DNA of 20,650 nucleotides from a virus. Shown piece by piece: positions 3,389 through 19,530 of the stretch. The position numbers and the translations under genes are program-made. Numbering within the stretch: position 1 is the stretch's first letter; each line of letters opens with the position of its first letter. Below the pieces are notes generated by a model. The model was not told the DNA's origin, did not search any database, and saw nothing but the letters and a program-made list of their open reading frames with translations. The DNA lies in the IMG/VR virus record IMGVR_UViG_3300010354_000864, positions 1-20,650 of that record; one strand, written 5' to 3'.

Positions 3389-4121
3389 AATCAATTTGTC
3401 TGTAATTAAGAAAATATTTCCATGCGTCTGGCTGTCTAAATTTAGCAGTAGGCATTACTCTAATAAATTCTGTATCATTGTATACTCCCATCACTGTTGC
3501 TAAACTTCTAACCCAATAACTTTCGTTGGTTGGGTAATCAAGTGGCGGGTAATTATTTGTGCCTGCAAATATATTGTAATTATTATCGGCACTATCAATA
3601 CCATCAAATCCTAGCATGTAAACTTTTTTATGTCCATCAAATGCCGCCATATAAGCTGCCATGGCTCCTGCATTGAAGTCTGGATTTTGTGGTAAAAAAT
3701 TAAATATTCCTGGATACTGTTCTAGATACTTTGAATTAGTATAAATCATGCCAGGCTTTTCTAAAGGCGTATCCGCTATCTCTTTTATAATACCTTCGCC
3801 AGTACAGGTTAAAAAATCTAATTTATAATTCCTATAGATAGCATTACAACCATATGTAAAAAAATTCTTGGTGTCTTTTTTATAGATCCAATCTGTGGCT
3901 TGACCCCAGGGAGTAGTTTCTCTATAAGGAAGAATCTTAGTTAGATCAAATTCATTGGCAGTGACCCCGTTACCAAATACTACTGCATGATTGGACTTGG
4001 CAGGGAATTGCGGAATTTCAATATCTTCAGTTTGATATTTCCATTGGTCTTCGATATATAAACCTATCAAATTCACTGATTCTGTAGTAATATTTTTTCT
4101 GTAAATTTTTTGCAGTGACAT
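3357..4121 (-). CDS. Sugar-transferase-like protein (GT42/DUF115-like)
   Basis: 254-aa cytoplasmic protein with no signal peptide or membrane segment. It has a nucleotide-binding style glycine turn (AVVFGNGVTANEF, 46-58), then TYGCNAIYRNYKLDFLTC (89-106), then NAGAMAAYMAAFDG and KKVYMLGFDGID (150-176). This order recalls Campylobacter CstII-type GT42 sialyltransferases and DUF115-type proteins (GNGPS, then a cysteine/asparagine strand, then SGVYMCAVAIALGYKEIYLSGID). The overall fold assignment is an inference, and donor sugar and acceptor are unknown. Its ATG overlaps the TAA of the upstream 951-aa fibre gene by one base, with GGGAG before it, so the two are translationally coupled. It may modify a surface glycan or a virion protein. 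Confidence 0.5.
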   Translation of the reverse strand: MSLQKIYRKNITTESVNLIGLYIEDQWKYQTEDIEIPQFPAKSNHAVVFGNGVTANEFDLTKILPYRETTPWGQATDWIYKKDTKNFFTYGCNAIYRNYKLDFLTCTGEGIIKEIADTPLEKPGMIYTNSKYLEQYPGIFNFLPQNPDFNAGAMAAYMAAFDGHKKVYMLGFDGIDSADNNYNIFAGTNNYPPLDYPTNESYWVRSLATVMGVYNDTEFIRVMPTAKFRQPDAWKYFLNYRQIDFRQFVLEADI

Positions 4122-6976
4122 TAAAATCTCCCAACAACCACTTCAATGGTTTTGATATCTTTGCTTTCAATATTTTCTAAGCTTTTCCCTAGCACACATC
4201 CGGGCCTAAACATACTAAAATTAATTGCTTCTGCTACACCGGGTATATCACTTGTAACTAATACAGTTCCTTTAGCAACTGGCCCACGTACTTGGCATGG
4301 TACACGCCCAGTGAACGCTACCGGCAATCCTTGACTGGCCGCATTCATTAAGTAGCCAGGATTGGTAGAAATTACCCCAGCAACTCTTGTGTCATGTGTT
4401 AATGTAGTGGTTGTTACTTCTTTTTCGCCACCAAAAACAACTACAGTACCAGGAGCATAATCTTGATCTGCTGTATAATTTTCTGCCAAGTCGGCGTATC
4501 TTGCCTGTTGCGATACACCGTAAATTGTATTCCACCAGGCGGTTGTACTTCCTAGGTTTTGAGAAACATTGGAAGTAGGAATGATCCATCCTGAAGTAAA
4601 AATATTTGCAGCAAATCCAGCTCCACCACGAACTACTAAAGCACCGGTTGTGGTCGAAGTTGATGTGGTTGTTGCTGTAATAACAAGGTTACCATTTGAA
4701 AAAATTCTTGCTGCTTCAAATAATGCCCCACCGGATCCACTTGCAGTTGTTCTAAATTGAATATCTGTTCCGTGGTTTGTACTAGTCCAGTTTTCTGCTG
4801 CACGGAAGTTAATAGTTCCGCCTGCAAAATATGTAGATCCATCATTACCCCACGCATCAATACCGGCGATACTGCCAGTTGCCGTAGGAACATCAGATCT
4901 CGCTAAAGTTAATGTAGCACTGGTGCCAGGACCAACAACTTGTAATCTTGCAGCACTAGTGCTAACGGTTGAAGAAGTTCCAATTAATGCATTTGTGCCT
5001 GTGATTAAGTTTGCTCCAACAATAACATTTCCAGCGATACCAACACCGCCCGCAACCACCAATGCGCCAGTTGTAGTTGAGGTTGAAGTGGTTGTGGATG
5101 TAATCGCCAAATTACCATTGGCATTATTAAAAACAATATTTGCGCCGGTAAATTGATTGCTGTTGTTGTATTGCAGCTGACCTGTTGTACCACCAGGTGC
5201 GCTACTAAATGCTGCACCATTGCCTGCCCAGTATATACCTGTGTCAGTAAGTACACCATAGGCTCTTAAATTACCTGAATTGGGGTTGTACGTCAATGAG
5301 GTGTTAATGTTTTGTGCCACATTACCCGACGTGGATCTTACAAATGTTACATAAGCTGTTCCCGAGGATATGTTAGAAGTGACTTGTGTGTTAATTGCAT
5401 TTGTAGCTGTGCCTGCAGTTCCATCTATTCCTACCCCGGTCAAAACCTGTGCTCCGCTGCTGCGATTGAGGTTAACATCTGTGGTACCAATATACAAAGT
5501 ACCGTAATGAGTTCCATTTAGGCCGTCGGCAAATATATTGCCCGCAACACCCAATCCTCCTGATACTACAACAGCGCCGGTGGTAGTACTGGTTGACACT
5601 GTGGTGTCGGTAAAGACTATATTTCCAGTTAGATCATCGTAAATGGCAGAGGTGCCACCTAGCGTTCCACCATTATTAAATTGAATTGCCCCATCTTGGC
5701 CCACTGAGGGTCCGCCAATTGGTATATTGTTTCCTGCCCAATACAGTCCCGAAGTATAAAGTGATTCCGAATAGATATTACCGCTTACACCGGCACCGCC
5801 TACTACAACCAAGGCTCCTGAGCTGGTACCAACACTGGCAGTACCAGATGCCGCAACTATATTTCCTGCTGCCGTTACAGTAGTACCTGCATTCACTGCG
5901 CCACTGATTCCCATACCGCCAATCACAACTACTGCGCCGGTAGTTGAGTTTGTACTAGCGGTGCCAGAATAGGCTACAATATTGCCGGCGCTTTTTAATG
6001 TTAGACTGTTGTAAAGATCGTTAAAATATCCAGAATTAGGTACCACTGTACCAATGGCAGTATTTTGTAAACCGCCGGCTGTTAAAGCTCCGCCTATGTA
6101 GGTGTCACCGCTTATACCGGCACCGCCTCTCACTATCATGGCACCAGTTGTTGTGCTTGAACTTGCCGTTCCAGAATTGGCCACAATATTGCCACCTACA
6201 TTTAGTCTACCGGCAATGCCTGCGCCACCTGATACTCGCAATGCTCCTGTGACTGTATTTGAACTCACAGTGGCATTTGCTACAACGATTTCACCAGATT
6301 TGATTGTGCCGTAGGTATTGCCTGTGAATACATTTCCTGTTTCTCTACCAGAATCATACCATTCTAGGTAACCAGTGTCGTTGGCTCTGCCTAAAAATGC
6401 ATGTTCGTCTTGATAATCGTAGTAGTGAAATTTTAGACCAATGTCTTTGCCGTCATTGAATGTCCACGGGGCTAAATTTGCCTGTGTGTGTAAATCTATT
6501 ACAGCGTCGCTAATACTTAAATTTTGCTGCCCAATTGTAAAAATATTGCCTTCAACTTGAAGATTACCTGTTATTCTTGCTGTAGCAAACACAGCATTAC
6601 CACTGCTTAAATTATCTGCCACAAACGTTTGAGCATAACTGGCTGCTGGAGCGCTGAAAGGATTACCGTTTGAGTATAAAAAATTGTCTGTCTTTAAAGA
6701 ATTTACTATTATTGTACCAGCTGTAACATTTGCATATGAAGAAACATTTAAATTGCTATTAGTAATTCCTGTGTCGTTGGTAAATGCAACAACAAACGTG
6801 TTACCACTTTCGCTCCAAACCACAGCTACATTAGATTTGACACCAAGATTTCTGTTTATTAGGAATCCGACATCCACGTTGGCCACTGTGGAATCACTGT
6901 TCAACAGTGTAATAGGATCTTCAAGTTTGGCTTTTGAAGTATCTGCAGAAATAAATCTAGTTCTGGTTAAACCCAT
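4121..6976 (-). CDS. Large tail-fibre-type protein with seven TTGA repeats
   Basis: 951-aa Gly/Ser/Thr/Asn-rich virion protein, likely a tail fibre or fibre tip. Order: N-terminal module (1-90: DPITLLNSD, DVGFLINR, NVAVVWSES); second copy of the same module family (about 135-235: LSISDAVIDLHTQANL, DGKDIGL, YGTIKSGEIVVAN); seven units of the type GNIVA.SGTAS.STTTGALVV.GG.GI.GN (about 227-796); a segment with SIAGIDAWGNDGSTYFAGG (about 702-722); and a C-terminal domain (about 824-951) with ARYADLAENYTAD, VAGVISTNPGYLMN, GRVPCQVRG and IEVVVGRF. The reading frame extends 16 codons upstream to 7024, but that extension contains a promoter box and most of a terminator. ATG 6976, with GGA 6 nt upstream, is therefore the start. 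Host-receptor binding is inferred, not shown. Confidence 0.72.
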   Translation of the reverse strand: MGLTRTRFISADTSKAKLEDPITLLNSDSTVANVDVGFLINRNLGVKSNVAVVWSESGNTFVVAFTNDTGITNSNLNVSSYANVTAGTIIVNSLKTDNFLYSNGNPFSAPAASYAQTFVADNLSSGNAVFATARITGNLQVEGNIFTIGQQNLSISDAVIDLHTQANLAPWTFNDGKDIGLKFHYYDYQDEHAFLGRANDTGYLEWYDSGRETGNVFTGNTYGTIKSGEIVVANATVSSNTVTGALRVSGGAGIAGRLNVGGNIVANSGTASSSTTTGAMIVRGGAGISGDTYIGGALTAGGLQNTAIGTVVPNSGYFNDLYNSLTLKSAGNIVAYSGTASTNSTTGAVVVIGGMGISGAVNAGTTVTAAGNIVAASGTASVGTSSGALVVVGGAGVSGNIYSESLYTSGLYWAGNNIPIGGPSVGQDGAIQFNNGGTLGGTSAIYDDLTGNIVFTDTTVSTSTTTGAVVVSGGLGVAGNIFADGLNGTHYGTLYIGTTDVNLNRSSGAQVLTGVGIDGTAGTATNAINTQVTSNISSGTAYVTFVRSTSGNVAQNINTSLTYNPNSGNLRAYGVLTDTGIYWAGNGAAFSSAPGGTTGQLQYNNSNQFTGANIVFNNANGNLAITSTTTSTSTTTGALVVAGGVGIAGNVIVGANLITGTNALIGTSSTVSTSAARLQVVGPGTSATLTLARSDVPTATGSIAGIDAWGNDGSTYFAGGTINFRAAENWTSTNHGTDIQFRTTASGSGGALFEAARIFSNGNLVITATTTSTSTTTGALVVRGGAGFAANIFTSGWIIPTSNVSQNLGSTTAWWNTIYGVSQQARYADLAENYTADQDYAPGTVVVFGGEKEVTTTTLTHDTRVAGVISTNPGYLMNAASQGLPVAFTGRVPCQVRGPVAKGTVLVTSDIPGVAEAINFSMFRPGCVLGKSLENIESKDIKTIEVVVGRF
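4124..4546 (-). repeat. C-terminal fibre domain, copy A
   Basis: The last roughly 140 codons of the 951-aa gene encode WWNTIYGVSQQARYADLAEN through IEVVVGRF. They are homologous to the end of the 307-aa gene (7058-7486). DNA is also conserved: plus-strand 4475-4492 equals 7403-7420 base for base, followed by one mismatch and eight more identical bases. Confidence 0.85.
4589..6298 (-). repeat. Seven imperfect protein repeats (TTGALVVxGGxGIxGN)
   Basis: Within the 951-aa protein the unit centred on T/S-T-G-A-hydrophobic-V-V-x-G-G-x-G-hydrophobic-x-G-N occurs at about residues 243, 277, 346, 387, 466, 636 and 777. Each is usually preceded by GNIV/GNLV and a Thr/Ser run. Spacing is irregular because other segments are inserted between units. 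Related units occur in the 307-aa (two) and 1415-aa (five) proteins. Confidence 0.8.
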
Positions 6977-6996
6977 TTTTAGTCCATATAGTTTAG

Positions 6997-7004
6997 TATT
7001 TATG
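6997..7004 (-). promoter_or_regulatory. T4-type late promoter box CATAAATA
   Basis: The minus strand reads CATAAATA, 7 of 8 to the T4 late consensus. It is exactly 20 nt before the ATG at 6976 and begins 7 nt after the terminator stem at 7012-7036. It would restart transcription for the 951-aa and 254-aa genes. Confidence 0.75.
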
Positions 7005-7011
7005 GAAAAAA

Positions 7012-7036
7012 CAAAAGGGTCCATTGGACCCTTTTG
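7012..7036 (-). terminator. Rho-independent terminator after the 307-aa gene
   Basis: CAAAAGGGTCC (7012-7022) pairs perfectly with GGACCCTTTTG (7026-7036) around a 3-nt loop, an 11-bp stem. On the minus strand the stem is followed by six T residues. It starts 18 nt past the TAA of the 307-aa gene (7055). Confidence 0.88.
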
Positions 7037-7054: not shown

Positions 7055-7978
7055 TTACATTCGTCCAACAACAACTTCTATAACACCTTCTATGCCGTCA
7101 AAATCAACCAAGGCTTTGCCAATTACCGTACCTATTTGTGGTGTATTTTCTGGGCGAGCATAACCCGATCCTGCGCTAACTAACATATCGCCTTTATGTA
7201 TTTTACCTCGCACTTTACACGGAGTTCTGCCTTGTAACGCAATTGGTACTACATTTTCACCACGGAGTCCAGTATTCATTAGGTGTGCTGGATTGGTAGA
7301 TACTACCCCTGCCACTCGTCGCGTCCCATCCTCGGCCAGCGTAACTTCGGCTGATCCACCAAACTCTAAAACGGTGCCCGGTTCGTACTGTGCATCTGCT
7401 TGATAATTTTCTGCCAAGTCAGCGTATCTAGCTTGTGTAGACACACCGTAAAAATTGTTCCACCATAGTGTGTCTGATCCTAGGTTGTTTGTGGCTACCA
7501 AGTTGCCGCTGGGTACTATATTTCCTGTAGCAGTAATTGCACGGCCACCTGACCCTGCAATAAACAAATTGCCACCAACACTAACGCCGCCATCAATTTG
7601 CAATGCGCCGGTGGTTGTTGAAATTGCCTGTGTGTTGTTTACAATATCAACAATACCACCAATAAATGCATTACCGGCTACACCCAATCCGCCTCTGCTG
7701 ACAATAGCTCCTGTACTTACATTACCACTTACTGTGGTAGCATAGCCAACAATGTTGCCGGCTACATTAGCTGAACTAGGTGCAATAGCAGTTCCGCTGG
7801 CAAGATAGTAGGCCAAATTGGCATGAGTAGCTGTCCCGCTGAAAGTACCGGCATAGATTGTTGAAAATTGAAAACTAGTATTTCCTAAGAATACATTAGC
7901 ATTGGCCTGAGGTTGTATGTTGCCATTAAACCTAACCGGGTTTGGGCCATAAGCTGTATCAATTCTTTGTAATGCCAT
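7055..7978 (-). CDS. Short tail-fibre-type protein sharing C-terminal domain
   Basis: 307-aa virion protein. Order: N-terminal segment (1-60: QRIDTAYGPNP, NVFLGNTSFQFSTIYAG); two TTGA-type units (about 75-108 GNIVGYATTVSGNVSTGAIV and 117-140 ISTTTGALQIDGGVSVGGN); then a C-terminal domain from about residue 165 (LGSDTLWWNNFYGVSTQARY, ADLAENYQADAQYEPG, VAGVVSTNPAHLMN, GRTPCKVRGKIHKGDMLV, VIEVVVGRM). The same C-terminal domain ends the next gene downstream, so the two proteins may assemble similarly or carry interchangeable tips. In other phage fibres such C-terminal domains can act in trimer assembly or self-cleavage (Peptidase_G2-like proteins). I could not identify a catalytic residue, so that is only a suggestion. 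ATG is preceded by AAAGGAA. It is the last gene of its transcription unit. Confidence 0.72.
   Translation of the reverse strand: MALQRIDTAYGPNPVRFNGNIQPQANANVFLGNTSFQFSTIYAGTFSGTATHANLAYYLASGTAIAPSSANVAGNIVGYATTVSGNVSTGAIVSRGGLGVAGNAFIGGIVDIVNNTQAISTTTGALQIDGGVSVGGNLFIAGSGGRAITATGNIVPSGNLVATNNLGSDTLWWNNFYGVSTQARYADLAENYQADAQYEPGTVLEFGGSAEVTLAEDGTRRVAGVVSTNPAHLMNTGLRGENVVPIALQGRTPCKVRGKIHKGDMLVSAGSGYARPENTPQIGTVIGKALVDFDGIEGVIEVVVGRM
7058..7486 (-). repeat. C-terminal fibre domain, copy B
   Basis: Codons 165-307 of the 307-aa gene, homologous to 4124-4546. Shared signatures are ARYADLAENY, PGTV..FGG..EVT, VAGV.STNP..LMN, GR.PC.VRG, a K-G-x-hydrophobic-L-V turn and IEVVVGR. The segment between LMN and GR and the stretch before the last strand differ in length. 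Confidence 0.85.
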
Positions 7979-7993: not shown

Positions 7994-10588
7994 TTATGCT
8001 TGGTTTTCTTGCCAACGCAACACTGCTCTAGCCTGTACTCTAACATTGTTGTTTAGTGGTGTAACTACTACACTCAATGTGTCCGGACCATCCGGGAATG
8101 TGTTAAATCCGCCTAACAAACTGTTGTTTAGTTCTTTGATCTTGGTCAAATCATAAGTTATAGTTTGGAAGTTGAAGCCGCCTGTAGTTACGAAGCCCGA
8201 ATAGTTTACAGCGTTTTGTCTAGGTGCTGGTGCTCCAACAATACCCTGCCATACAATTTCGCCTCCGGTCGTCAGCGTGGCCTGATCATCATACTGTGCC
8301 AAACTATTACCACCAACATTTACCCATACTGGCGCAGAACTACTTAACTGTCCGTTAAGAATAATTTGTATTTGACAGGCATCGGTAGCAGAAATGTCGC
8401 AACTGAGTGGCCATATCTGCATGTGATTACACAAATCACGCACACCAAATCCGCCTGGAATACCGTTGTCTGCTGTGGGTGCTAATCTAATATTTAGAAT
8501 AGTATAAGGGCTGAACTGGTTAATAGTATTTAACTGTCCAGTAGCACTAAATGTGTACCCACGGTCTTCGTTGAACATACCATCCATGATCATGCTGGTA
8601 CCCCAATGGAACAAAGTTGGAGCTGCACTTGGTGCGGTTTCTCCATTTATTACTTCATACCTTACAGGCAAGTTACCAGAACGGAAATATGCTTCTACTT
8701 TGTTATTACCGTGTACAAAACTGTGTAGATAAGTGATTTCGCCATCCTGATCTTTTACGCCAAAACGAATTGTACCAGCGCCATACCAAGCATAGTCAAT
8801 ATAATACATCAAAATTTTGTTGATATCCAAATTAAAGCCTGTGGCTCCAGTGCCATCTGCCTTGTCAATGTTAAATCCTGATTGTGGAATTCTAGCATCG
8901 ACTGTTTTACTAACCTTGACACCGGATAAAGTAGTTACTGAACTATCGGCTCTATAAGTAGGAGCCACATCTACACTTGTATTGCTTATAATATTGATTA
9001 CTTTATAACTGTTGCCTTTGACTACAATGTAATCTCCTACAGACAATTCATTGGTGAATAAAGTGCCCGAACCGGCAAAATTGGCACTACCATTGGTAAC
9101 AGTAATCGTGCCGGTAATCTGTCTGGTGCTTGATCTACGAATTGCCCATAAAGTGGTACCATCCCACTCCCAGAATGCACCGTTTTGATCATCGTATACA
9201 CCAGCACGATTTTGTATGTTACTTGCTGCTTGTGCAGGATTGTTAAATGCCACTGCAAATGAAACTTGCACACCTTTACCAGATTGATAACGGAAATATT
9301 TACGACTCTGTCTAATAATTCTGCTGTTAGGCTGTGTATCGTTGGTGGTCATGGTGATACCACCATCAAAAGGAGCTGCATACGCTATACCTTGTGGTCG
9401 AACGTAAATGTTACCTGCTGTGCCTGCAAATGTAGTTGTACCACTTATAGTAGCAGTTTCGTAAGTGAATGATCTACCGTTGCCTACAGTAGCGATGGTC
9501 TGTGGACCTGTCACATTGGCCCATGAAAAATTAACTACTGATAATGTGTTATTAACTTTCAGCCCATGGTTACTAGTTGTAATAACTTCAACTGTGGTAT
9601 TACCAAAAGTTTTTAACGCAGTAAATGCAATGTTTGCTCCAGTAAAGAAAGCACCAGGATAAATTGCCACACCGTTTTGGAAAATACTTCCCGAGCTTAC
9701 AGTGCCTGTACCTACATATCTAAAAGTAGTTGTGTTGATGTAAGATACTAAAAATTCTCCATTGGCTTGCTCGTCGGTGGTGCCCACAACTGTAATAGGT
9801 TGTCCTTCGGTTAATCCGTGACTTGCAGAAGTTGTAACTGTAACATAAGATGTACCATTACCGGTAAATGTACTAATGTTTGCTGTTTGAGCAAGGGCAG
9901 CATCCGTATTACGACCATAACTAGCAAAGTAATTGTTGATAAACTTCATGGTTTGCCATTTAGTAGGCTGCGGACCATATTCAAAATCTGTATCAATCAA
10001 TGACTGCGGTTGACTAACACGTAACTTACCAACTGGATCAACTAAAAAGTCTCTAAAAGATACCAATGGTGCCGGTTCGCTGTCAGTGATAATTAATAAT
10101 TTGTCTGTGGTTGAATAGGCGCTGGTATCAACAGGAATATTACCAATTCTCGTTTGATAGTTTCTGTCCGAGAATGTAAGTGCCGTGTTGGTTTCTGTAG
10201 CAGTTGCCGGAACATCAAGATAAATTATATCTGTTCCGTTTGTATAATCAACGGTGGCACCATTTGTGGGCATACCATTGCCGCTGATACGCCAACCTTG
10301 CTGTACGCCAGTACTGTTGTAATTTAATGAGTTAAACTGACCAGTGGTAAATTTGATTGCAGTATTACCGCTTTGTACATTGCCTTGGACATTAAGGCTG
10401 CGCTGCACGTTTGTAAATGTTACACTGTTAAATGTTGTATCATTGAAATTGTACAATGTGGTTTTACTAGGTACGTGAATAATTAACAGTATTTGTTCTG
10501 GTGTGGCCTTGTCTGGTAAGGTTACCTGTGTGCTACCTGAACTGCCTGTTGTAAAAATGTATCCTTCGGTATAAGTTTTCTTTGCCAT
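7994..10588 (-). CDS. Large virion structural protein
   Basis: 864-aa protein of a type found as 'virion structural protein' in T4-like aquatic phages; exact role (fibre, fibre connector or baseplate decoration) unknown. N-terminus 1-50 (YTEGYIFTTGSSGSTQVTLP). Hallmark segment 177-215 (SFRDFLVDPVGKLRVS, SLIDTDFEYGPQPTKWQTM). Two repeats of a small beta unit, SHGLTEGQPITVVGTTD.ANGEFLV (256-291) and SNHGLKVNNTLSVVNF (339-354). A central domain 420-490 (SRKYFRYQSGKGVQVSFA, AFWEWDGTTLWAIRRSS). A beta-barrel-like insert about 490-560 (GTLFTNELSVGDYIVVKG). A long C-terminal domain with FHWGTSMIMDGMFNEDRGY (660-678). No signal peptide or membrane segment. ATG 10588 has AAGGAT upstream. It lies 21 nt after the 349-aa gene and 15 nt before the 307-aa gene, in one operon. 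Confidence 0.7.
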   Translation of the reverse strand: MAKKTYTEGYIFTTGSSGSTQVTLPDKATPEQILLIIHVPSKTTLYNFNDTTFNSVTFTNVQRSLNVQGNVQSGNTAIKFTTGQFNSLNYNSTGVQQGWRISGNGMPTNGATVDYTNGTDIIYLDVPATATETNTALTFSDRNYQTRIGNIPVDTSAYSTTDKLLIITDSEPAPLVSFRDFLVDPVGKLRVSQPQSLIDTDFEYGPQPTKWQTMKFINNYFASYGRNTDAALAQTANISTFTGNGTSYVTVTTSASHGLTEGQPITVVGTTDEQANGEFLVSYINTTTFRYVGTGTVSSGSIFQNGVAIYPGAFFTGANIAFTALKTFGNTTVEVITTSNHGLKVNNTLSVVNFSWANVTGPQTIATVGNGRSFTYETATISGTTTFAGTAGNIYVRPQGIAYAAPFDGGITMTTNDTQPNSRIIRQSRKYFRYQSGKGVQVSFAVAFNNPAQAASNIQNRAGVYDDQNGAFWEWDGTTLWAIRRSSTRQITGTITVTNGSANFAGSGTLFTNELSVGDYIVVKGNSYKVINIISNTSVDVAPTYRADSSVTTLSGVKVSKTVDARIPQSGFNIDKADGTGATGFNLDINKILMYYIDYAWYGAGTIRFGVKDQDGEITYLHSFVHGNNKVEAYFRSGNLPVRYEVINGETAPSAAPTLFHWGTSMIMDGMFNEDRGYTFSATGQLNTINQFSPYTILNIRLAPTADNGIPGGFGVRDLCNHMQIWPLSCDISATDACQIQIILNGQLSSSAPVWVNVGGNSLAQYDDQATLTTGGEIVWQGIVGAPAPRQNAVNYSGFVTTGGFNFQTITYDLTKIKELNNSLLGGFNTFPDGPDTLSVVVTPLNNNVRVQARAVLRWQENQA

Positions 10589-10609: not shown

Positions 10610-11659
10610 TTAAAATCCGCCCAGTGCCACTGCATAAACTAATGCTGTGTTTTGTACAACTGTAATAGATGTAGATGAATTTGCACGCCATTTGCCTGTG
10701 CCTGAGTTATACTGTAAAAATTGTCCATCCGCCGGTGTGCTAGTAAAATCAATGTCTGCCAACGAACCCAATGCACTTACTCCACTACCTGCCAGTATTT
10801 TTACTTCGGCATTACTACCTGTTGGTAACGCTTCAGTGAACGTTATATTGGTTCCACTGATACTGTAAGTGTCTTTTGGTTGATAAATCCCGTTCCACCA
10901 TACCGCAACTTGATCTTTGTCGGCTGGTGTATTGCCTAGATTAAAAGGCCCAACTGTGCCGTTGCCTTGAACAACTTTTGTTAACAGTCCAGATCCTGAG
11001 GTTGTACTAACCTGACTTCCTTGTTGATAAATGTTACCACCAACATAAAGATCACCGGATTTAACAACAACATTGGAACTTGCAGTAACAAATTTATTTG
11101 TAGCCACTACCAAATTTGCTGCTGCCGGTCCTGGGTCTGAATCAGATGTATTAATCCAAGTAAACTTAGAGTCCGGACTCAGTTTTAGTTCTACATATCC
11201 TTTGCCTAGGTCTGATCCTAATAAAAAGTAAACATCCCAACTTGTGCCTGTGCCTAGTCCGTTGGTGCTCAGTGCCTTGACTCCTTGCACACCTTCCCTA
11301 TATCCAAGACTGTAGTAGTTAGATTCAATATTGGTTGAACCGCCATTTAAAAAACGAATTTCAACAATGTCTTTGACCAAGGAATCGGCTGCATAACCTT
11401 GTCCTGCTACCACAGTGAATTCCACTGTTTCTCCTGCACCGGGTCCAGAGGTTACACTGAATGTCCCAATCTTGTACCACGTTGGTGAAGCCAATGACGA
11501 GGGAAACTGTAAACCAATTTTTTGTATATATGAAGTAGTAATTGCGGTAGTAGAGGTGCTGGTAATGTTACCAGTGGTTAAAATTTCGCCGTTGCCAGCA
11601 AAAATTTTAACTGGGCCTACTTCTAATCCGTTATGTACTACAAAATTCTTACTTGCCAT
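10610..11659 (-). CDS. Tail-fibre-type structural protein
   Basis: 349-aa protein. Begins FVVHNGLEVGPVKIFAGNGE (5-24), a common opening for fibre proteins of this phage group. Residues 55-180 form a distinct domain (TWYKIGTFSVTSGPGAGE, DIVEIRFLNGGSTN, SWDVYFLLGSDLGKGYVELK) that looks like an all-beta binding or trimer-forming domain; I cannot assign it to a named family. Residues 237-291 (GPFNLGNTPADKDQVAVWW, NGIYQPKDTYSISGTNITF) are one copy of the 'INGxxQxPxxxYTVxGNxITF' module shared with three other genes here. Residues 296-330 (DFTSTPADGQFLQYNSGTGK) are a variant of the 'RFN..TN.LE.Y.G.W' module. ATG 11659 has GGGAG upstream at a slightly long spacing. It lies 22 nt after the 1415-aa gene. 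Confidence 0.65.
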   Translation of the reverse strand: MASKNFVVHNGLEVGPVKIFAGNGEILTTGNITSTSTTAITTSYIQKIGLQFPSSLASPTWYKIGTFSVTSGPGAGETVEFTVVAGQGYAADSLVKDIVEIRFLNGGSTNIESNYYSLGYREGVQGVKALSTNGLGTGTSWDVYFLLGSDLGKGYVELKLSPDSKFTWINTSDSDPGPAAANLVVATNKFVTASSNVVVKSGDLYVGGNIYQQGSQVSTTSGSGLLTKVVQGNGTVGPFNLGNTPADKDQVAVWWNGIYQPKDTYSISGTNITFTEALPTGSNAEVKILAGSGVSALGSLADIDFTSTPADGQFLQYNSGTGKWRANSSTSITVVQNTALVYAVALGGF

Positions 11660-11681: not shown

Positions 11682-14600
11682 TTACAGTTTCATTAATGTT
11701 GGTGTTACTTTAATTTTCAAATTTGCTCCAGCACTGCTTGCATTTAAATATGCAGTGCCCGCAGATATATTACTTGAGAATGTGGCCAGGTTAGCTGCAC
11801 CTGTAAAAGTAACCCCATAAACCTCAATACTACATGTTGTTCCGTTATGTACAGCTATCACTTCGGCTGCTTGGTATTCGCCGCCACTTTCATCAGTTAA
11901 TTGGACAAAGAATTTTCCGCTTCTGTAGGTAGCTGTTGCAAATCCATAAACCGCATCTGTACCACCAGGAGAAACAAACTTTCCTCGTATGTCATCGGTA
12001 ACATGTTCTGCGTTGGTTGTAAAGGTACTATTTGCAAATAAACTTGTAAACGCACCTAATCTAGCGATGTTAGCACCAATTACTGTGTCATCTAAACTGC
12101 CAGAGCTTAGGCTTGCCCCGCTGATCGTGCCGCTTACGTTAATGTTACTAACATAAAAATAGTCAACTCTATTGTCGGAATAGCCAATATTTGCTGTGCT
12201 TACAGGATAAAAATCACCGTGAGTGTCTATTCTCCAATTTTCAACCGAACCTAAAGATAAATTACCTGTGTAAAATCTTAGTGCGGTATCGTCTGAAACA
12301 AATTGATTAAATCCGCTAGTGGATGCAATTGCTGTAACGGTTTGTGTTGTAGTGATTATTCTGGTGTCAACAATGTCGCCAATCGCCGGTGCTTCAGTAA
12401 AAGTAACCACATTGCCTGTGACTGTGTAAGCAGTTGTTGGAACTTGTAACACACCACTAATGGATACCAATGTACCAGCAGTTGTGGAATTTGATGCCAA
12501 AGAGAATTGTGTGTTTATGCCGTCAACATTACCGTTTAGATCTCCACTGGAATTACTAAATGTTCTACTTAAAATTGTTGTGAATGTACTACCGGTAGTG
12601 TTCCATTGTCCGTCGCCGTAAAATTCCAATGCATTGGTAGTAGAGTTAAATCTCAACATACCATCTACATCTGTAAAGCCAACTGAACCTGGTCTTTGTG
12701 CCGATGTTCCTACTGGAACTAGTAAGGCATCTGTACTAGCAATAACTAATTTTGCGCCTTGAGTAATATTGCTTGCGGTGATATTTCCGCCAATGCTTAC
12801 TTGATCATAAGTGGAATCTGCTACAACAAATACCAGACTATTTTCATTGGTACCGCGTATAATTGTGTCATGTATAGATTTATTACCGTTAATTACTACG
12901 CCTTGCCCAACATACATGTTTCCATTTATAGCCGCACCGCCGGTGCCTGTAATAACCAATGCACCAGTTGTGCTAGCGGTGCCAGCTGCCGCAGTATAAA
13001 CAGTGGTATTACCTGAGCTGATTACTATATTGCCTGTGGCCAATTTTAAGTTTGCGGTTGCTACAAGTTCAGTGAATGTGCCAGCGGCCGGTGTGGCATT
13101 ACCAATAATTGTGTTGTTTAGTGCCGCAGCGGTTAGTGTAGTAAATGCACCTGTTGCTGCTGTATTGGCACCAATTGGGAAATTGTCTGCATATCCACCG
13201 GTGATTCTTGCATTAGCTGTGCTAAAATTAGTAATTAAGCCAGTTGTAACATAGGCATTGGTCAATGCACTGATATAACCGCCGCTGACAACTAGATTTC
13301 CGCTGCTGAAATTAGAAGCAACTAGAGTAGTAACGTTTCCATTGGTTGCATTTACAGTGGTTCCAGTTACGGTTTGTCCATCAACGGTTGTAAAAGCGCC
13401 CGAACTAGGAGTTACTGCACCAATTGGAATGTTGTTGATTCCGCTGGTACCAGTTCCTCCGCGAATCCAAACAGGACCAGTGGGTGCAGCCCATAAACTT
13501 GTTGCTGCTCTAAAATTAGAAGCATACACATTTGCTGCACTTGTAGCACCAATTGACATATTATCAATTGTACCAATGACCAATGGATTTATAGTAACTG
13601 TGGCTGCACCTGACTGAGGTGCAAGATAAACATTGGCCGTTCCGTTGATTGTTGCAATTACTGCCTGATTGTTTACTGTTAGGCTATTTAAAGTAGATGC
13701 ACTGGTTGACACCAACGTAGTAAACACACCAGTGCTTGGTGTAGCATTTCCAATAGGAGTGGCATTTATACTGCCGGCGTAAATAGTCCCGGCATTTAAA
13801 TTGCCTGCGACGCCAACGCCGCCTGCTACCGTTACTGCACCGGTAATGGTGTTTGTAGACGAAGTAGAATTAGCAATTATTAATTCGCCGGATTTAATTG
13901 TACCATATGTACCGCTTATTACATTACTACTATTTTCTGTTGCTGCTGCATAGTATTCAAAATAGGTTGAACTATTTTTTTGGCCAAAGAAGAAATACTT
14001 GTCTGAACCAAGATAATAGTTGCCTAAAACACCAATGTCTCTACCATCGTTTGTAGTAAGAGGTGCCCCGTTAGCAAATGTGTGTAACTTGATTGAACTA
14101 TCTTTTACGACCAAATCTACGCTGTCAACGCTGGTTGTGGTTCCTAATACCACTAGGTTTCCAGCAACAACTGCATTGCCACCAACATATAAATTTTTAC
14201 CTATACCAGCACCGCCAGTAATTGTTAATGCACCGGTTGATGTTGATGTCGATTGTGTTGCATTTGTTACGTTTAGTATACCACTAGCATTTGCTGTAGT
14301 GAACGAAGCTGGTCCTGTAACATTTGCACCAATTGCAACGTTATCTAAATATCCAGAATAAATGTTGCCAAAACTGGTAGCAAAATTTGTTAATCCTGCT
14401 ACAGTTCCTCCGGTTACATAAATGTTAGGAAAACTTGCACCCAATTCAACTAATAAATTTCCAAACTTGGCATCAAAACCTTCTACATTATCAGCAGTAA
14501 CGAAAGTAGTATCGTTTCCTGTAGAAAGTGATATGTTACCACCGGTAATTACAGCATTGGCTGTGCTAAAGTTTTCCGTCCTGCCTGTTGTTATATAAGC

Positions 14601-15929
14601 ATTTGTTAACGCACTTATGTATCCACCAGAGATAACAATATTACCTGAACTGGCATTGGTTGCATATAATGTAGTAAAGTTGCCGCTTGATGGTGTTGTG
14701 TTTCCAATTGGTGTACCCTGAATACTACCTGCATACACATTACCAGAGATTGCTGCTCCGCCATTCACTAGTAATGCACCGGTACCAAACCCTGAGCTTG
14801 CTGTATTTGAAAGTATAGCCATCCCTGCGGTATTGATAATTGCCTTGACATTGGCTGCATCAAATCCGCCAACAGCAAATGCCATACCGTTGCCTGGACC
14901 GCCACTATGGTTTATTATAAACAAGTTACCAGTGTTACCAACGCCATGATGAATTAGGTAACCATCGTTTGCTTTCAAATTTGGATAAGCAGCGTCGTCA
15001 AATGTGCTACTGTTAATACCTAAGTTAATATAACCATTGGTATCATTGCCATTGTCTGCTGTTAATACAAAGTCTGTTGATGCTTTGGTACCGCTGTTAA
15101 TATTTTGGAAATTTACCTGAGCATATGAATTAACATTTCCACTCATCTGCAATACAGTGGTAGGTAGTGCTGTGTAAGTGCTTGTGCCGGCATACAATGC
15201 GCCTATACCGCCAGCGTTACCAAAAAACACACCAGTATTACTGAATGTACCACCAACTGGTACATTAATATTGCCGCTTAACTGAATATTACCTGCAACA
15301 ATGTTGCCAGCAAATGTACTTGCTCCCTGTACCCATAAGTCACCAGTGATGCCAACGCCGCCGCCGCCAGGAACAACCAATGCACCAGTTGTGTAATTTG
15401 TTGCTGAAGCACCAGATGCTGCAACAATATTGCCCGAGGCAATTAAAAAGTCCGCAACATCAAGATTGTTAATTCTGGCTGTTTGAATAGTTGCTGCATT
15501 AGATACTGTCACATTACCAGCTATAAGGTTAGCTTGGAATTTTCTATTAATAGTTCCGGCAGTTGTGCCTGTTTCAGTGGTAAGAACAACAATAAATGCG
15601 CCATCAGATTCTGACCATACCAGTGCAGCATTTACACCGCCGTAGTTTTCTAGTGTTCCTAAAGAACGGTTAAAAAGTACGCCAACATCATAAGTAGGTG
15701 TACCAACATAACCATTGTTTAAAGTAATTAAATTGTCAGAAACAAGTGTATCAATTGAGTTGATCGTGGTGGTATTACCTGTAACTGTAAGATTTCCCGC
15801 GATACTAACGTTAGAATTTAAAGTTAAATTTGCATTAAACAGACTGCCAACCAGTGTTCCTGACGCAATTTTCTGAAATGTAATGGTACTATCAGTTATC
15901 TGATTATTTTTAATTCTAGTGACTGCCAT
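11682..15929 (-). CDS. Giant modular tail-fibre-type protein
   Basis: 1415 aa, the largest gene here. Order: opening module (1-125: GNLTVTGNTTTINSIDTLV, DNLITLNNGY, NAALVWSESDGAF); five TTGA-type units (about 181, 383, 565, 696 and 988); two ISGGYISALTNAY units (about 433 and 882) identical in style to the next gene upstream; a second opening-type module (590-690: LVVKDSSIKLHTFANGAPLT); seven 'IGN.TPS.G.FTTL' units (about 406-1300); a RFNSTTNALEFYGDGQWN module (1094-1110); an INGxxQxP-type module (LVSISGVLQVPTTAYTVTGN, 1154-1173); and a C-terminal domain about 1305-1415 (TYRSGKFFVQLTDESGGEYQ, then VIAVHNGTTCSIEVYGV). A GTG one codon upstream (15932) is in frame. ATG 15929 is preferred because GGAG lies 7 nt upstream and a promoter box sits exactly 20 nt upstream. 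Likely a trimeric fibre, by composition and repeats. Confidence 0.72.
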   Translation of the reverse strand: MAVTRIKNNQITDSTITFQKIASGTLVGSLFNANLTLNSNVSIAGNLTVTGNTTTINSIDTLVSDNLITLNNGYVGTPTYDVGVLFNRSLGTLENYGGVNAALVWSESDGAFIVVLTTETGTTAGTINRKFQANLIAGNVTVSNAATIQTARINNLDVADFLIASGNIVAASGASATNYTTGALVVPGGGGVGITGDLWVQGASTFAGNIVAGNIQLSGNINVPVGGTFSNTGVFFGNAGGIGALYAGTSTYTALPTTVLQMSGNVNSYAQVNFQNINSGTKASTDFVLTADNGNDTNGYINLGINSSTFDDAAYPNLKANDGYLIHHGVGNTGNLFIINHSGGPGNGMAFAVGGFDAANVKAIINTAGMAILSNTASSGFGTGALLVNGGAAISGNVYAGSIQGTPIGNTTPSSGNFTTLYATNASSGNIVISGGYISALTNAYITTGRTENFSTANAVITGGNISLSTGNDTTFVTADNVEGFDAKFGNLLVELGASFPNIYVTGGTVAGLTNFATSFGNIYSGYLDNVAIGANVTGPASFTTANASGILNVTNATQSTSTSTGALTITGGAGIGKNLYVGGNAVVAGNLVVLGTTTSVDSVDLVVKDSSIKLHTFANGAPLTTNDGRDIGVLGNYYLGSDKYFFFGQKNSSTYFEYYAAATENSSNVISGTYGTIKSGELIIANSTSSTNTITGAVTVAGGVGVAGNLNAGTIYAGSINATPIGNATPSTGVFTTLVSTSASTLNSLTVNNQAVIATINGTANVYLAPQSGAATVTINPLVIGTIDNMSIGATSAANVYASNFRAATSLWAAPTGPVWIRGGTGTSGINNIPIGAVTPSSGAFTTVDGQTVTGTTVNATNGNVTTLVASNFSSGNLVVSGGYISALTNAYVTTGLITNFSTANARITGGYADNFPIGANTAATGAFTTLTAAALNNTIIGNATPAAGTFTELVATANLKLATGNIVISSGNTTVYTAAAGTASTTGALVITGTGGAAINGNMYVGQGVVINGNKSIHDTIIRGTNENSLVFVVADSTYDQVSIGGNITASNITQGAKLVIASTDALLVPVGTSAQRPGSVGFTDVDGMLRFNSTTNALEFYGDGQWNTTGSTFTTILSRTFSNSSGDLNGNVDGINTQFSLASNSTTAGTLVSISGVLQVPTTAYTVTGNVVTFTEAPAIGDIVDTRIITTTQTVTAIASTSGFNQFVSDDTALRFYTGNLSLGSVENWRIDTHGDFYPVSTANIGYSDNRVDYFYVSNINVSGTISGASLSSGSLDDTVIGANIARLGAFTSLFANSTFTTNAEHVTDDIRGKFVSPGGTDAVYGFATATYRSGKFFVQLTDESGGEYQAAEVIAVHNGTTCSIEVYGVTFTGAANLATFSSNISAGTAYLNASSAGANLKIKVTPTLMKL
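12039..14714 (-). repeat. Seven 'IGNxTPSxGxFTTL' protein repeats
   Basis: Within the 1415-aa protein the motif x-P/A/I-I-G-x-x-T-P-x-x-G-x-F-T-T-L recurs near residues 406, 530, 724, 832, 916, 939 and 1281 (for example TPIGNTTPSSGNFTTLYAT and TPIGNATPSTGVFTTLVST). One diverged copy (TAIGTVVPNSGYFNDLY) is in the 951-aa protein. This motif type is common in phage tail fibres. Confidence 0.75.
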
Positions 15930-15949
15930 CACTTATCTCCAATTTTAAG

Positions 15950-15957
15950 TATTTACC
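15950..15957 (-). promoter_or_regulatory. Candidate late promoter box GGTAAATA
   Basis: Minus strand GGTAAATA, 6 of 8 to TATAAATA. The first two bases are off-consensus, but the distance to the ATG at 15929 is exactly 20 nt, as for three other boxes. It sits in the 58-nt gap after the 569-aa gene and would start the 1415-349-864-307 unit. Confidence 0.5.
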
Positions 15958-15987
15958 AAAAATTAGAGATATAGTAAATGACAAAAA

Positions 15988-17697
15988 TTACACTATGAAA
16001 TAGGTTTTTTGCAGTCGCATCTGAGCAGAGGCGCTGGCTGTGGCGTAAACTTGTACGAGTGATCCGCTGATATTGGCAGTAATTGTGGTCAAAACACTGC
16101 CTGTGACAGCCCTGTTTATGTTACTAACTGCAACATTTGGATCAAATTGAGTTATTGCAAACTCAGCGAATTCCGATGAACCAGAACTTGCTGTAGTGCT
16201 AGCAATGTATTTTGCACTTCTAAATTGATTGATATTAAAGCTGTCAATCAAAATTGCTCCTGTGGTCAGGCTAATATTGCCCGAATTTATTTCTTGGTTG
16301 TTTTCGGCTGTAACTGTACCAGATGCAATATATCTAATAGACACAATATCAGTGACTAACGGAATTTCTGAAAAGGTTATCTGGTTACCAGCTACTGTGT
16401 AGGCCACACCAGGCTGCTGTAATGTACCGTTGATGCTGACAATTATACCTTCAGCGGTGGTGCCGGAATCCAATGTATAAACTGTACTTGACCCGTCGGG
16501 TACAATAGATTGGTTGCTGATTTGCCCTAGCAAAGTTTGCCAACCTGTGCCATTGTAAACTTCGAGGTTGTTCGTTGAGTTATTCCATCTAATAGCACCA
16601 CCGTATACCGGTACAGGTTGTTGCCCGGTTGTTCCAGCAGGTAATTGTAAAGCACTTGTAGCGTTTATTGTGACAACTGCATTGGGATTACTCAATAGCG
16701 GCTGTATAACAACATTACCAGTTAAACTGGAGATTGTAATGTCTTCAATTTTTATACTACCAATATTAGCAGTTGATATTGATGCATTGCTTAATGCAGA
16801 AATATAGCCGCCAGAAATTACAGCGTTACCCGAAGAAAGATTTGTTATTACAGATGTAGTTAAATTAGCATTGGTCGCATTTAGATTAGTAGCATACCAA
16901 TTTTGCACATTGCCAGTGACTATAGTTGCATTGGACAATGATGATATGTATCCGCCGCTGATAACTGCATTACCGGTGCTAAAATTGGTTATTTCCGAAG
17001 TGGTTATGTAAGCATTTGTCAATGAGGAAATATAACCACCAGATATTACTGCATTGGCCGTACTAAAATTAGATACTGCCAAAGTTACAACGTTTCCAAA
17101 ACTTGAATTTAATTCAGTGGCATACAAACTTTGCAAATTAGCGGTACTTATAGTGGCATTAGACAATGCACTTATGTAACCACCAGATATTACTGCATTG
17201 GCTGTGCTAAAATTAGTAATTGCACTGGTTGTAATATAGGCATTAGTTAATGCGCTTATATAGCCGCCACTTATAACTGCATTAGCAGTGTTCATTGACC
17301 CCAACGCTGCTGTGTCAGTTACACTGATGTTTCCAAAAATTGAAGTACCGCCAGTGTTACTAATATTGCCGCTAAAGTTATTAGCAAACAAGTTGCCAGC
17401 ATACAAATTGCCTGTTATGCCAGCACCACCAATCACATTAAATGCACCAGAATTTACATCTGTGGCCTGAACGCCTGATGCAGCAACTAAATTACCAAAT
17501 ATTTTTGTAATCCCCGAAACATTGGCAGTTCCTGCGACTGTAAATGTATCAACTACGGAATTAGTATTGACGCCAAATCTAAAGTTGGTAAAGTCCATGT
17601 AGGCCAGCGGCCTACCGTTGGTAGTAAAAGCAAGATCTACACTTTGTCTATCTAGATCTGAAAATAGTAAAGCGCCGCTTATTCTGCCAATAGCCAC
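15988..17697 (-). CDS. Tail-fibre-type protein with five GGYIS repeats
   Basis: 569-aa virion protein. N-terminus 1-60 (LDRQSVDLAFTTNGRPLAYM, then FGVNTNSVVDTF); one TTGA-like unit (about 66-100); five AVISGGYIS[A/S]L units (140, 168, 216, 244 and 292); then QLPAGTTGQQP with IRWNNSTNNLEVYNGTGW (351-387); the INGxxQxP module (SINGTLQQPGVAYTVAGNQI, 421-440); and a C-terminal domain 485-569 (FRSAKYIASTTASSGSSEFA, LTTITANISGSLVQVY) related to the end of the 1415-aa protein. The start is GTG with a strong AAGGAG 5 nt upstream; the next gene upstream in transcription (141 aa) ends only 9 nt before it. Composition and repeats indicate an elongated trimeric fibre or spike, by inference. Confidence 0.7.
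   Translation of the reverse strand: MAIGRISGALLFSDLDRQSVDLAFTTNGRPLAYMDFTNFRFGVNTNSVVDTFTVAGTANVSGITKIFGNLVAASGVQATDVNSGAFNVIGGAGITGNLYAGNLFANNFSGNISNTGGTSIFGNISVTDTAALGSMNTANAVISGGYISALTNAYITTSAITNFSTANAVISGGYISALSNATISTANLQSLYATELNSSFGNVVTLAVSNFSTANAVISGGYISSLTNAYITTSEITNFSTGNAVISGGYISSLSNATIVTGNVQNWYATNLNATNANLTTSVITNLSSGNAVISGGYISALSNASISTANIGSIKIEDITISSLTGNVVIQPLLSNPNAVVTINATSALQLPAGTTGQQPVPVYGGAIRWNNSTNNLEVYNGTGWQTLLGQISNQSIVPDGSSTVYTLDSGTTAEGIIVSINGTLQQPGVAYTVAGNQITFSEIPLVTDIVSIRYIASGTVTAENNQEINSGNISLTTGAILIDSFNINQFRSAKYIASTTASSGSSEFAEFAITQFDPNVAVSNINRAVTGSVLTTITANISGSLVQVYATASASAQMRLQKTYFIV
16768..17280 (-). repeat. Alternating 28/48-residue protein repeat (76-residue super-repeat)
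   Basis: AVISGGYIS units begin at residues 140, 168, 216, 244 and 292 of the 569-aa protein. Intervals are 28, 48, 28 and 48, so a 76-residue (228-bp) super-unit is present twice (17280-17053 and 17052-16825), plus a fifth unit start. Short units read ..SLTNAYITTSxITNFSTxN; long units read ..LSNATI.T.N.Q..YAT.LN. Codons differ at many synonymous positions between copies (for example GCA GTT ATA AGT against GCA GTA ATA TCT). Confidence 0.9.
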
Positions 17698-17706
17698 GGC
17701 TGCTCC

Positions 17707-18132
17707 TTATGCAGCATTAGTGCTGTTGAGATTGTGTACTACAACTATTTTGTTAGGATTGACCCCAGGTGCCGGCGGTGGGCTTGTGAATGTAATCGAT
17801 GTAGTGCCGTTTACTGTGTAATTAATATTAGGTTGCTGATATACTCCGCCTATTTGCACTAAAATTGCATTAGCGTCCGATTCTGTTTGACTCATTGTAA
17901 ACGCTGTTTGTACAGCGTCACCTGTAAATTCATCTACATTGATAGTAACTGACCCAATTTTAGCAACCTGATTCCATACTCCAGCAAAAAACAGTTCCAC
18001 TCGGTTGTTACTAGTGTTGAATCTAATTTGCCCATTTTGTGGTTGATCTGGGCCTACACTATTACTGCCAAGGGGTAATTGTACAGCGTAGCTGCCACCT
18101 AATAGTTGAGTATTTTTTAAGTATCTGCCCAT
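17707..18132 (-). CDS. Small virion structural protein (fibre module pair)
   Basis: 141-aa protein, essentially two of the shared modules in tandem. Residues 17-55 (VQLPLGSNSVGPDQPQNGQI followed by RFNTSNNRVELFFAGVWNQV) are the 'P.GT..RP..G.IRFN..N..E.Y.G.W' module. Residues 62-135 (TINVDEFTGDAVQTAFTMSQ, ILVQIGGVYQQPNINYTVNG, FTSPPPAPGVNPNKIVVVHN) are the INGxxQxP module. I chose ATG 18132 because AGGTG precedes it, the previous gene stops 2 nt earlier (TGATAATG), and the 33 in-frame codons upstream are basic, low-quality sequence inside the previous gene. A virion role is inferred from the family and the neighbours. Confidence 0.68.
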   Translation of the reverse strand: MGRYLKNTQLLGGSYAVQLPLGSNSVGPDQPQNGQIRFNTSNNRVELFFAGVWNQVAKIGSVTINVDEFTGDAVQTAFTMSQTESDANAILVQIGGVYQQPNINYTVNGTTSITFTSPPPAPGVNPNKIVVVHNLNSTNAA

Positions 18133-18134
18133 TA

Positions 18135-18458
18135 TCAAACACCTATAGTGCTTACGCTTGCCACGATTGAATTTCCTACGTTGGCATTGGCTCTCAATGT
18201 ATCTCCGTTGCCTAATACCAATTTTTCCCAATCAACTATATAAGTATCACCAGATGCTATTACCTTGTTTTTGTAAATTATATTATTGGAGTTGGCCACA
18301 AAACCGGCCGGAACGAGATGTAATGTAAAGGCTGTGGCTGCTGTGTTTGTGTTACAAAAATACATAGTTGTCACCGCCTGTCCACCAATACCAGTTGCAG
18401 CTAAAACATTTGCTGCTGCCTGTCCTGAATCTACTAAAACTGTGTTATGAATTGCCAT
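18135..18458 (-). CDS. Small virion structural protein, beta-sandwich-like
   Basis: 107-aa protein (begins MAIHNTVLVDSGQAAANVLA). Order: TTMYFCNTNTAATAFTLHLV (30-49), IIYKNKVIASGDTYIVDWEK (59-78), LVLGNGDTLRANANVGNSIV (79-98). Alternating hydrophobic strands and an 'FCNTN...F.L.LVP.G...NNIIYK...I..GDTY.VDWEKLVL.NGD.LRA' pattern suggest a compact all-beta capsid or fibre decoration unit of the kind seen in aquatic T4-like phages. No signal peptide. ATG has AAGGAA upstream. It stops 2 nt before the 141-aa start, so the two are probably translationally coupled. Exact position in the virion unknown. Confidence 0.65.
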   Translation of the reverse strand: MAIHNTVLVDSGQAAANVLAATGIGGQAVTTMYFCNTNTAATAFTLHLVPAGFVANSNNIIYKNKVIASGDTYIVDWEKLVLGNGDTLRANANVGNSIVASVSTIGV

Positions 18459-18467
18459 TTTTATTCC

Positions 18468-18848
18468 TTAAAGTACCAATGCATAAACTTGTGCCGATGT
18501 AACTGCTGTTGCAGAACCAGTTTGAATAGATTCATATGTGCTTCCATCGTTGGTTAATGTCCATGCACCGAGTGTTTCGTTCCACAAAATTGCTACATTG
18601 GCCAATGATCCGCGATCAACTTCGATGCCTGCTGTATTTTGTGTTACTCCTGGACCTGTTTCGCCTGCATTAACTGTTATAATTCTATCTGTGATCTGAA
18701 GATCAGTTTCGGTAATTGCAGTAGCATTACCGCCCACAAACAAGTTTCCTTGAATAAAAACCGTATTCGTGGATAAAGTTATGTTTGCGTTAGCATTAAT
18801 TTTGTTTGTGATGATGTAATCATCATTTAGACTTTTAACTACAGCCAT
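18468..18848 (-). CDS. Stand-alone fibre N-terminal module protein
   Basis: 126-aa protein made almost entirely of the opening module of the large fibres: NANITLSTNTVFIQGNLFVG (19-38), GNATAITETDLQITDRIITV (39-58), NAGETGPGVTQNTAGIEVDR (59-78), NVAILWNETLGAWTLTNDGS (83-102). The 1415-aa protein carries two versions of it and the 951-aa protein two. First gene after the best late promoter in the window (TATAAATA, 20 nt before the ATG), with AAGGA before the start. The C-terminal tail SAQVYALVL is hydrophobic, like the ends of its neighbours. Perhaps a fibre base or attachment piece; function inferred from module sharing only. Confidence 0.66.
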   Translation of the reverse strand: MAVVKSLNDDYIITNKINANANITLSTNTVFIQGNLFVGGNATAITETDLQITDRIITVNAGETGPGVTQNTAGIEVDRGSLANVAILWNETLGAWTLTNDGSTYESIQTGSATAVTSAQVYALVL

Positions 18849-19453: not shown

Positions 19454-19530
19454 TTTATTTCTCCTTATAATAGCGTTCTAGGCCTACGCGGTTGGCTCCG
19501 CAATAAGTTCTCATTGAAGAGTGAACTATG
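19454..19530 (-). promoter_or_regulatory. Long, possibly folded 5' leader of the 169-aa gene
   Basis: 77 nt separate the AATAAATA box from the ATG at 19453, against 20 nt elsewhere. The leader contains GCGGAGCCAACCGC, which can form a 4-bp GC stem with a 6-nt loop, and a palindromic TAGGCCTA. Structure is only suggested; no known riboswitch is recognised. Confidence 0.3.

Follow-up and report, generated by a model that had tools for sequence, protein, structure and literature searches.

Neighbouring fibre genes of a freshwater T4-related phage share a kit of protein modules with fixed ends and exchanged interiors

How do neighbouring fibre genes of one phage come to share their protein parts, and which of these parts are free to move? 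The question is raised by a 20.6-kb IMG/VR virus record, analysed here as the window (the whole 20,650-nt stretch). The window and its relatives show a freshwater T4-related phage with consecutive fibre genes drawn from a common protein kit; the genes of the cluster, with and without kit modules, have the one-strand order 169-126-107-141-569-1416-349-864-307-967-254 (genes are named by product length in aa). Facing the cluster on the opposite strand are a Nudix gene, gp15 (tail sheath stabiliser) and a gene for a 460-aa structural protein, while in relatives the gp20 portal, gp21 protease and gp23 capsid genes, followed by variable genes, lie upstream of it. The homologues of gp15 (in the window) and of gp20, gp21 and gp23 (in locus L018) are syntenic, as in a T4-superfamily myophage. 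A close relative has a gp23 with 68-70% identity to the jumbo-phage protein, its best matches being Vibrio phage 2.275.O, Sinorhizobium phage Phosso and Pseudomonas phage PA5oct, and contigs of up to 374 kb carry relatives of the 141-aa gene. The comparison set comprised ~100 IMG/VR loci, several of them assembled from metagenomes, where repeats may be joined wrongly.

The surroundings of the kit genes are themselves partly conserved. The Nudix hydrolase gene (2888-3388, + strand) has its start overlapping the end of the gp15 gene, and this adjacency is retained in relatives and in PA5oct. The cluster is closed by a 254-aa protein (3357-4121, - strand; 32-77% identity in relatives), which gave a weak PHROG match alone. 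The 864-aa protein, a conserved anchor gene of the cluster, had 173 tblastn matches, mostly in cyanophages, with 36-39% identity among the best matches listed; the 569 gene had no tblastn match among cultured phages. A 332-aa protein (19526-20524, - strand) without Pfam or PHROG match carries a TEKTYKPI...GP motif, which we take to resemble a glycosyltransferase C-terminus, and its site holds one to three related genes in relatives (L020, L025).

The original prediction had described five recurrent modules (A to E) and a C-terminal domain common to the 569 and 1416 proteins (F). HMMs of the modules, started from the window and refined iteratively with relatives, and BLASTP recovered all of these and gave nine modules across seven genes, the others being G (PIGxxTPSxGxFTTL) and H (common to 307 and 967), both absent from the prediction, and A2, a second form of A (Table 1). 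As predicted, B was found in 569, 1416, 307 and 967, C in 569 and 1416, and E in 569, 1416, 141 and 349, and the small genes 126 (A) and 141 (D-E) are a single module and a module pair. Two assignments needed amendment: A occurs in 126, 1416 and 967, but the second copies in the latter two are the diverged A2, which lacks NVALVW, and D occurs in 569, 1416 and 141, but the HMM finds none in 349. The preference for a 951-aa product over the 967-aa ORF agrees with the start shared by relatives (MGLTRTRF...). The cluster had been placed at 11682-18848; the kit does lie there, but it runs on to 4121, so that this interval holds about half of it.

Table 1. Positions of the kit genes, their parts and associated features in the window
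Feature	Position	Strand	Modules and parts	Evidence
126-aa gene	18468..18848	-	single A (~18495-18755)	HMM E 5e-30; syntenic orthologues
107-aa small gene	18135..18458	-	no shared module	syntenic in nearly all relatives; weak phrog_16194 tail protein
141-aa gene	17707..18132	-	D (17974-18090), E (17740-17955)	HMM D 5e-22, E 8e-29
569-aa fibre gene, B-C5-D-E-F	15988..17697	-	conserved N-terminal anchor ~17548-17697; B 17392-17499; five C 16777-17295; D 16540-16656; E 16324-16515; F 15994-16269	BLASTP and module HMMs
1416-aa fibre gene	11682..15932	-	N-terminal anchor 15804-15932; A1 15516-15803; then variable B/G/C/A2 interior; D 12603-12728; E 12354-12545; F 11694-11972	module HMMs
A2 in 1416 gene, a kind that elsewhere typifies the 967 gene	13878..14162	-		tree and AU tests
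Putative recombination breakpoint in 1416 gene	13443..13565	-	aa ~790-830	20-aa and 60-aa identity profiles, DNA
349-aa gene	10610..11659	-	E at ~10790-10990	HMM 9e-29
864-aa virion structural protein	7994..10588	-	without kit module	phrog_5838 2e-159
307-aa gene	7055..7978	-	B-B (7553-7762), H (7058-7492)	HMMs; H C-terminus 47% identical to that of 967
967-aa ORF (951 aa from conserved start), A-A2-B7-H	4121..7024	-	A1 6716-6982; A2 6287-6568; seven B 4586-6298; H 4124-4570	module HMMs

Within the cluster, BLASTP aligned 1416 with 569 (34% over 351 aa, 2e-33) and with 967 (38% over 223 aa, 5e-30), 307 with the C-terminus of 967 (47% over 189 aa, 8e-42), 141 with 1416 (3e-9) and 569 (5e-9), and 126 with 1416 (1e-8). 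Residue-shuffled decoys gave no match to the unfiltered module HMMs, and reversed decoys gave one marginal match (E 0.0095), only to the first, over-broad model of H, which was then narrowed. Orthologue sets were never mixed in the profile-profile comparisons, which were thus not circular; F of 569 scored 97.8% (1e-12) against F of 1416, and A of 1416 scored 97.2% (4e-11) against A of 126, while A against A2 was weaker (86-89%, E ~2e-6 to 6e-6, chiefly in the first half). These comparisons upheld the recurrence of the modules, and an explanation by low complexity was not borne out. A tandem-repeat finder detected no long tandem arrays in the window.

Several modules could be related to known folds. 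The profile of module E matched in the PDB a K1 depolymerase (3e-13), the tail adaptor of Klebsiella phage Kp7 (4e-11) and the fibre of cyanophage P-SCSP1u (1e-5), and matched CBA120 by sequence at E 0.12 only. Eight of its 20 copies matched Phage_T7_tail (PF03906) at E <= 0.1 (best 2e-4; the window 569 copy was unmatched), and eight of 20 matched DUF4183 (best 6e-5). A model of E fitted TSP4 187-250 (XD2) with Z 9.6 and 1.7 Å over 64 residues, and T7 7ey7 with Z 7.2. By profile and model, then, E resembles a docking fold of the T7 gp17-N / CBA120 TSP4-XD2 type. Six of 12 F copies matched phrog_967, 'baseplate wedge tail fiber protein connector' (best 9e-7), and the F model fitted T4 gp9 (1qex 169-283) with Z 9.0 and 2.6 Å over 98 residues, which supports F as a putative gp9-like connector. 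XD2-type domains of T4 gp10 and CBA120 TSP4 bind other trimeric phage proteins, and TSP4 has the gp9 fold as well, in its XD1 domain (PMC8825819). Module A was recognised solely within families of virion structural proteins; in PA5oct a protein encoded at the same place, whose record names it a tail fibre and notes its detection by mass spectrometry, matches A at 6e-9. Eight of 16 H copies matched Peptidase_G2 (PF11962; best 7.5e-6; the window 307 copy was unmatched), going by its family name a domain of self-cleaving tail-spike C-termini. H is a candidate Peptidase_G2-like domain and is predicted to be a C-terminal folding or chaperone domain. In two relatives (L031:16847-17551 and L021:19115-20422) H is fused to Mtd_N, the Major tropism determinant N-terminal domain. 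A 307 orthologue (L011:3804-4739) has its C-terminal end out of frame relative to all others, probably through a frameshift or sequence error.

PDB sequence searches with whole proteins and with the F, H and A profiles gave no useful match, and the window proteins yielded neither an enzymatic nor a carbohydrate-binding domain. The partial AlphaFold model of 569 was good only at 390-569, with pLDDT <45 before residue 350, and that of the 951-aa protein had a mean pLDDT of 35. In the 569 model, the C-repeat region aligned with beta-helix tailspikes (Z up to 13), but at a pLDDT of <45, too low for use, and these alignments were set aside.

The histories of the modules differ according to where they lie in the proteins. 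Each gene has an N-terminal anchor that it retains across the ~100 IMG/VR loci. D-E copies cluster by gene rather than by phage: a tree of 36 copies required three gene-label changes, the minimum possible, vs 33 phage-label changes, and one of 140 copies required four gene-label changes vs a shuffled mean of 61. All 63 D-E copies from the 141 gene formed one clade, and the nearest neighbour of E was the same gene in a different phage in 41 of 41 copies. F copies separated cleanly into 569 and 1416 groups in the first set, with three changes in the larger one, and the N-terminal A copies of 967 (22 copies) and 126 (44 copies) required one label change each. The anchors and the D-E/F ends are thus old paralogues inherited in place.

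The interiors of the same genes are fluid. All 25 unique complete 1416-type proteins (860-2064 aa; an artefact contig was excluded) differ in module string, yet A stands first in 25 of 25 and D-E-(G)-F last in 21 of 25; the string in the window is A-B-B-G-C-C-G-B-A2-B-G-G-C-C-G-G-B-D-E-G-F. Among C repeats, 24 had a nearest neighbour from the same phage and the same gene, vs 7.4 expected, which reflects local duplication. Genes are also divided. The 967 gene is present as two genes in L010 (1252 and 244 aa, the latter H alone) and in L014 (625 and 419 aa), each half with a separate start and a Shine-Dalgarno-like sequence, and an inserted body divides the 569 gene in L046 and L103 and the 1416 gene in L033 and L110. 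The tips of 569 and 967 orthologues carry F, H, Gp53-like_C, Gly_rich_2 or other domains, and the end of one 967 orthologue carries collagen repeats.

Pieces also pass between genes. The central A of the 1416 gene is of one type in most relatives and of the 967 type in the window, L013 and L014, and the 967 gene of L014 holds the 1416-type central A. With 56 A copies, AU tests rejected trees in which the central copies of 1416 (p 2e-5) or of 967 (p 8e-5) were held together; with 153 copies, the 1416 group needed eight label changes and was rejected at p 7e-77. Central A modules therefore cross among the 1416, 967 and 569 genes; in L122 the 1416 A is 84% identical to the A of 569b in L124, vs 71% to the next 1416 copy. 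In L046, L103, L112 and other loci a ~610-aa body (phrog_8578) directly follows the 569 anchor, and in L033 it directly follows that of 1416, with 45-55% identity behind the two different anchors; it lies at L046:2440-4434 and L033:6994-10134 and does not occur in the window. In L021 and L031, where the 349-864-307 genes are absent, the 1416 orthologue terminates in H rather than F, and an AU test of the placement of this H among the 307 copies gave p 0.17. Exchange between phages is seen in the 1416 gene of the window, which is 85-100% identical to that of L014 around aa 580-790 and ~85-100% identical to those of L015 and L016 over most of the stretch past aa 800, the other parent being far lower on either flank of a sharp breakpoint. 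We infer that the gene is a mosaic, L014-like upstream and L015/L016-like downstream of the breakpoint, which adjoins a G module, a single case that does not prove G to be a recombination site. The original prediction of a combinatorial system in which genes grow, split and exchange pieces is thus supported by the relatives on each count, but exchange is not free: since the anchors and D-E/F ends are old paralogues kept in place, 'combinatorial' applies to interiors and tips only.

Could these patterns have arisen otherwise? The proteins are T-, S-, N-, G- and A-rich, and the similarity might reflect the composition of Gly/Ser/Thr/Asn-rich beta repeats rather than homology. We regard this as extremely improbable, given that shuffled decoys failed to match unfiltered HMMs, that profiles matched across orthologue sets, and that Trp/Tyr/Asp positions are kept in A, D, E and H; it is ruled out for A, D, E, F and H, while for the short B, C and G the case rests on the HMM decoy controls. 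Nor does it seem at all likely that misassembly of repeats in metagenomes is the main source of the differences in architecture, although one such case was encountered. The fibre gene of L018 (L018:12171-16159, IMGVR_UViG_3300008117_000714) has no mismatch to L016 over the 1416 gene and differs from it by clean deletions of 144, 30 and 78 bp and an exact 26-bp tandem duplication that produces a frameshift. As the two are otherwise identical, the apparent split in L018 (798 and 454 aa) was dropped as a natural one and is probably a misassembly. Elsewhere, however, the same architectures recur in independent assemblies (L026/L031 with 1051 aa; L033/L034/L035 with 497 and 1046 aa; L081/L087/L088/L089 with 1134 aa), and the genes are all in frame with start and ribosome-binding sites.

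Old gene duplications alone might also mimic exchange, if both types of A had once been present in each gene and were lost differentially. The D-E, F and N-terminal A modules do behave as old in-place paralogues, the A2 exchange is itself old (the A2 copies of 1416 and 967 in the window are ~47% identical), and some of the history of A could be duplication with differential loss rather than transfer. As a full account, however, hidden paralogy is unlikely: none of the first-set 1416 genes with a central A holds both central types, and the body shared behind two unrelated anchors, the close L122-L124 pair and the sharp breakpoint in the window all speak against it. About equally improbable is that part of the cluster specifies fibres decorating the head or neck and not tail fibres that bind receptors. 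The cluster does come after gp23, and PHROG annotations place relatives of 864, 967 and A among head and packaging structural proteins; against this, F matches gp9, E matches tail adaptors and tail-fibre N-termini, the alternative tips are tail-fibre domains (Gp53-like_C, Gly_rich_2), and the PA5oct counterpart is named tail fibre.

The fold and profile resemblances of E, F and H thus make a receptor-binding fibre cluster the likely reading: one of a T4-superfamily myophage with a capsid nearest to those of jumbo phages, whose putative trimeric-fibre genes are built from one kit with fixed anchors and docking parts and exchanged interiors and tips. The products would be virion proteins that bind receptors, and the cluster may encode a branched fibre complex. 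Each gene would most likely give one fibre of this complex, in which an N-terminal anchor specific to the gene would lead into a shaft made up of short beta-rich repeats (A, B, C, G) and, beyond it, docking domains (D-E, F) and a replaceable tip or C-terminal folding domain (H). The docking domains would recruit or receive other fibres; both they and the anchors evolve in place, presumably because their partners do not change. The interiors and tips undergo duplication, deletion and recombinational swapping, among phages as well as among the genes of one cluster, which would alter fibre length and receptor binding, and they could be exchanged without breaking assembly since docking parts stay fixed and shared folds are kept. 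Such swapping is probably a way in which these phages change the surfaces that they bind. A more speculative extension, which we consider doubtful, is that the cluster is a standing generator of diversity: B, C and G repeats of neighbouring genes would serve as sites of intragenomic recombination, so that a lineage could quickly reshuffle interiors and tips while docking ends kept the products compatible with the complex.

Modular receptor-binding proteins and tailspike swapping are already known. In Kuttervirus TSP genes, receptor modules are swapped at a conserved motif (PMC8432352), and tail fibres and tailspikes show an excess of domain mosaicism (PMC10684548). As in TSP1-4 of Ackermannviridae phage CBA120 and in T4 gp9/gp10, adjacent receptor-binding genes here would share jelly-roll docking domains and a gp9-like domain; E fits XD2 of TSP4 (an XD2/XD3-like jelly-roll) and F is gp9-like, docking itself being predicted. 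In contrast to the CBA120 TSPs, the window proteins have their docking domains towards the C-terminus, after long shafts of repeats, and none was identified as a beta-helix depolymerase. The T4-superfamily jumbo phage RaK2 (Alcyoneusvirus) has ~nine long-tail-fibre proteins with XD domains (PMC10253068), likewise a fibre gene cluster; those proteins are mostly depolymerases, whereas those of the window are repeat-shaft fibres. The host recognition cluster (HRC) of pelagimyophages and cyanomyophages is a hypervariable island of fibre genes and glycosyltransferases in the structural region, located between VrlC and the neck gene gp14 (PMC7029224). Our cluster is likewise a hypervariable, fibre-rich island within the structural region, and relatives of A and 864 occur in cyanophages; because it lies in relatives between gp23 and the Nudix/gp15/460-aa genes, we consider it HRC-like in its working, yet do not class it as an HRC. 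Compared with general domain shuffling of receptor-binding proteins, exchange is here resolved among neighbouring genes of a cluster, with fixed ends and mobile interiors. What is new is a clear variant, in resolution and lineage, rather than a new kind of system.

The cluster provides annotation rules for 'structural protein' genes of aquatic T4-like phages. Its ~100 loci, with 25 architectures of a single gene, also form a natural comparative series that separates the parts that must stay (anchors and docking ends) from those that are free (shaft and tip) in abundant uncultured phages, and through it questions of fibre length, branching and host range become testable.
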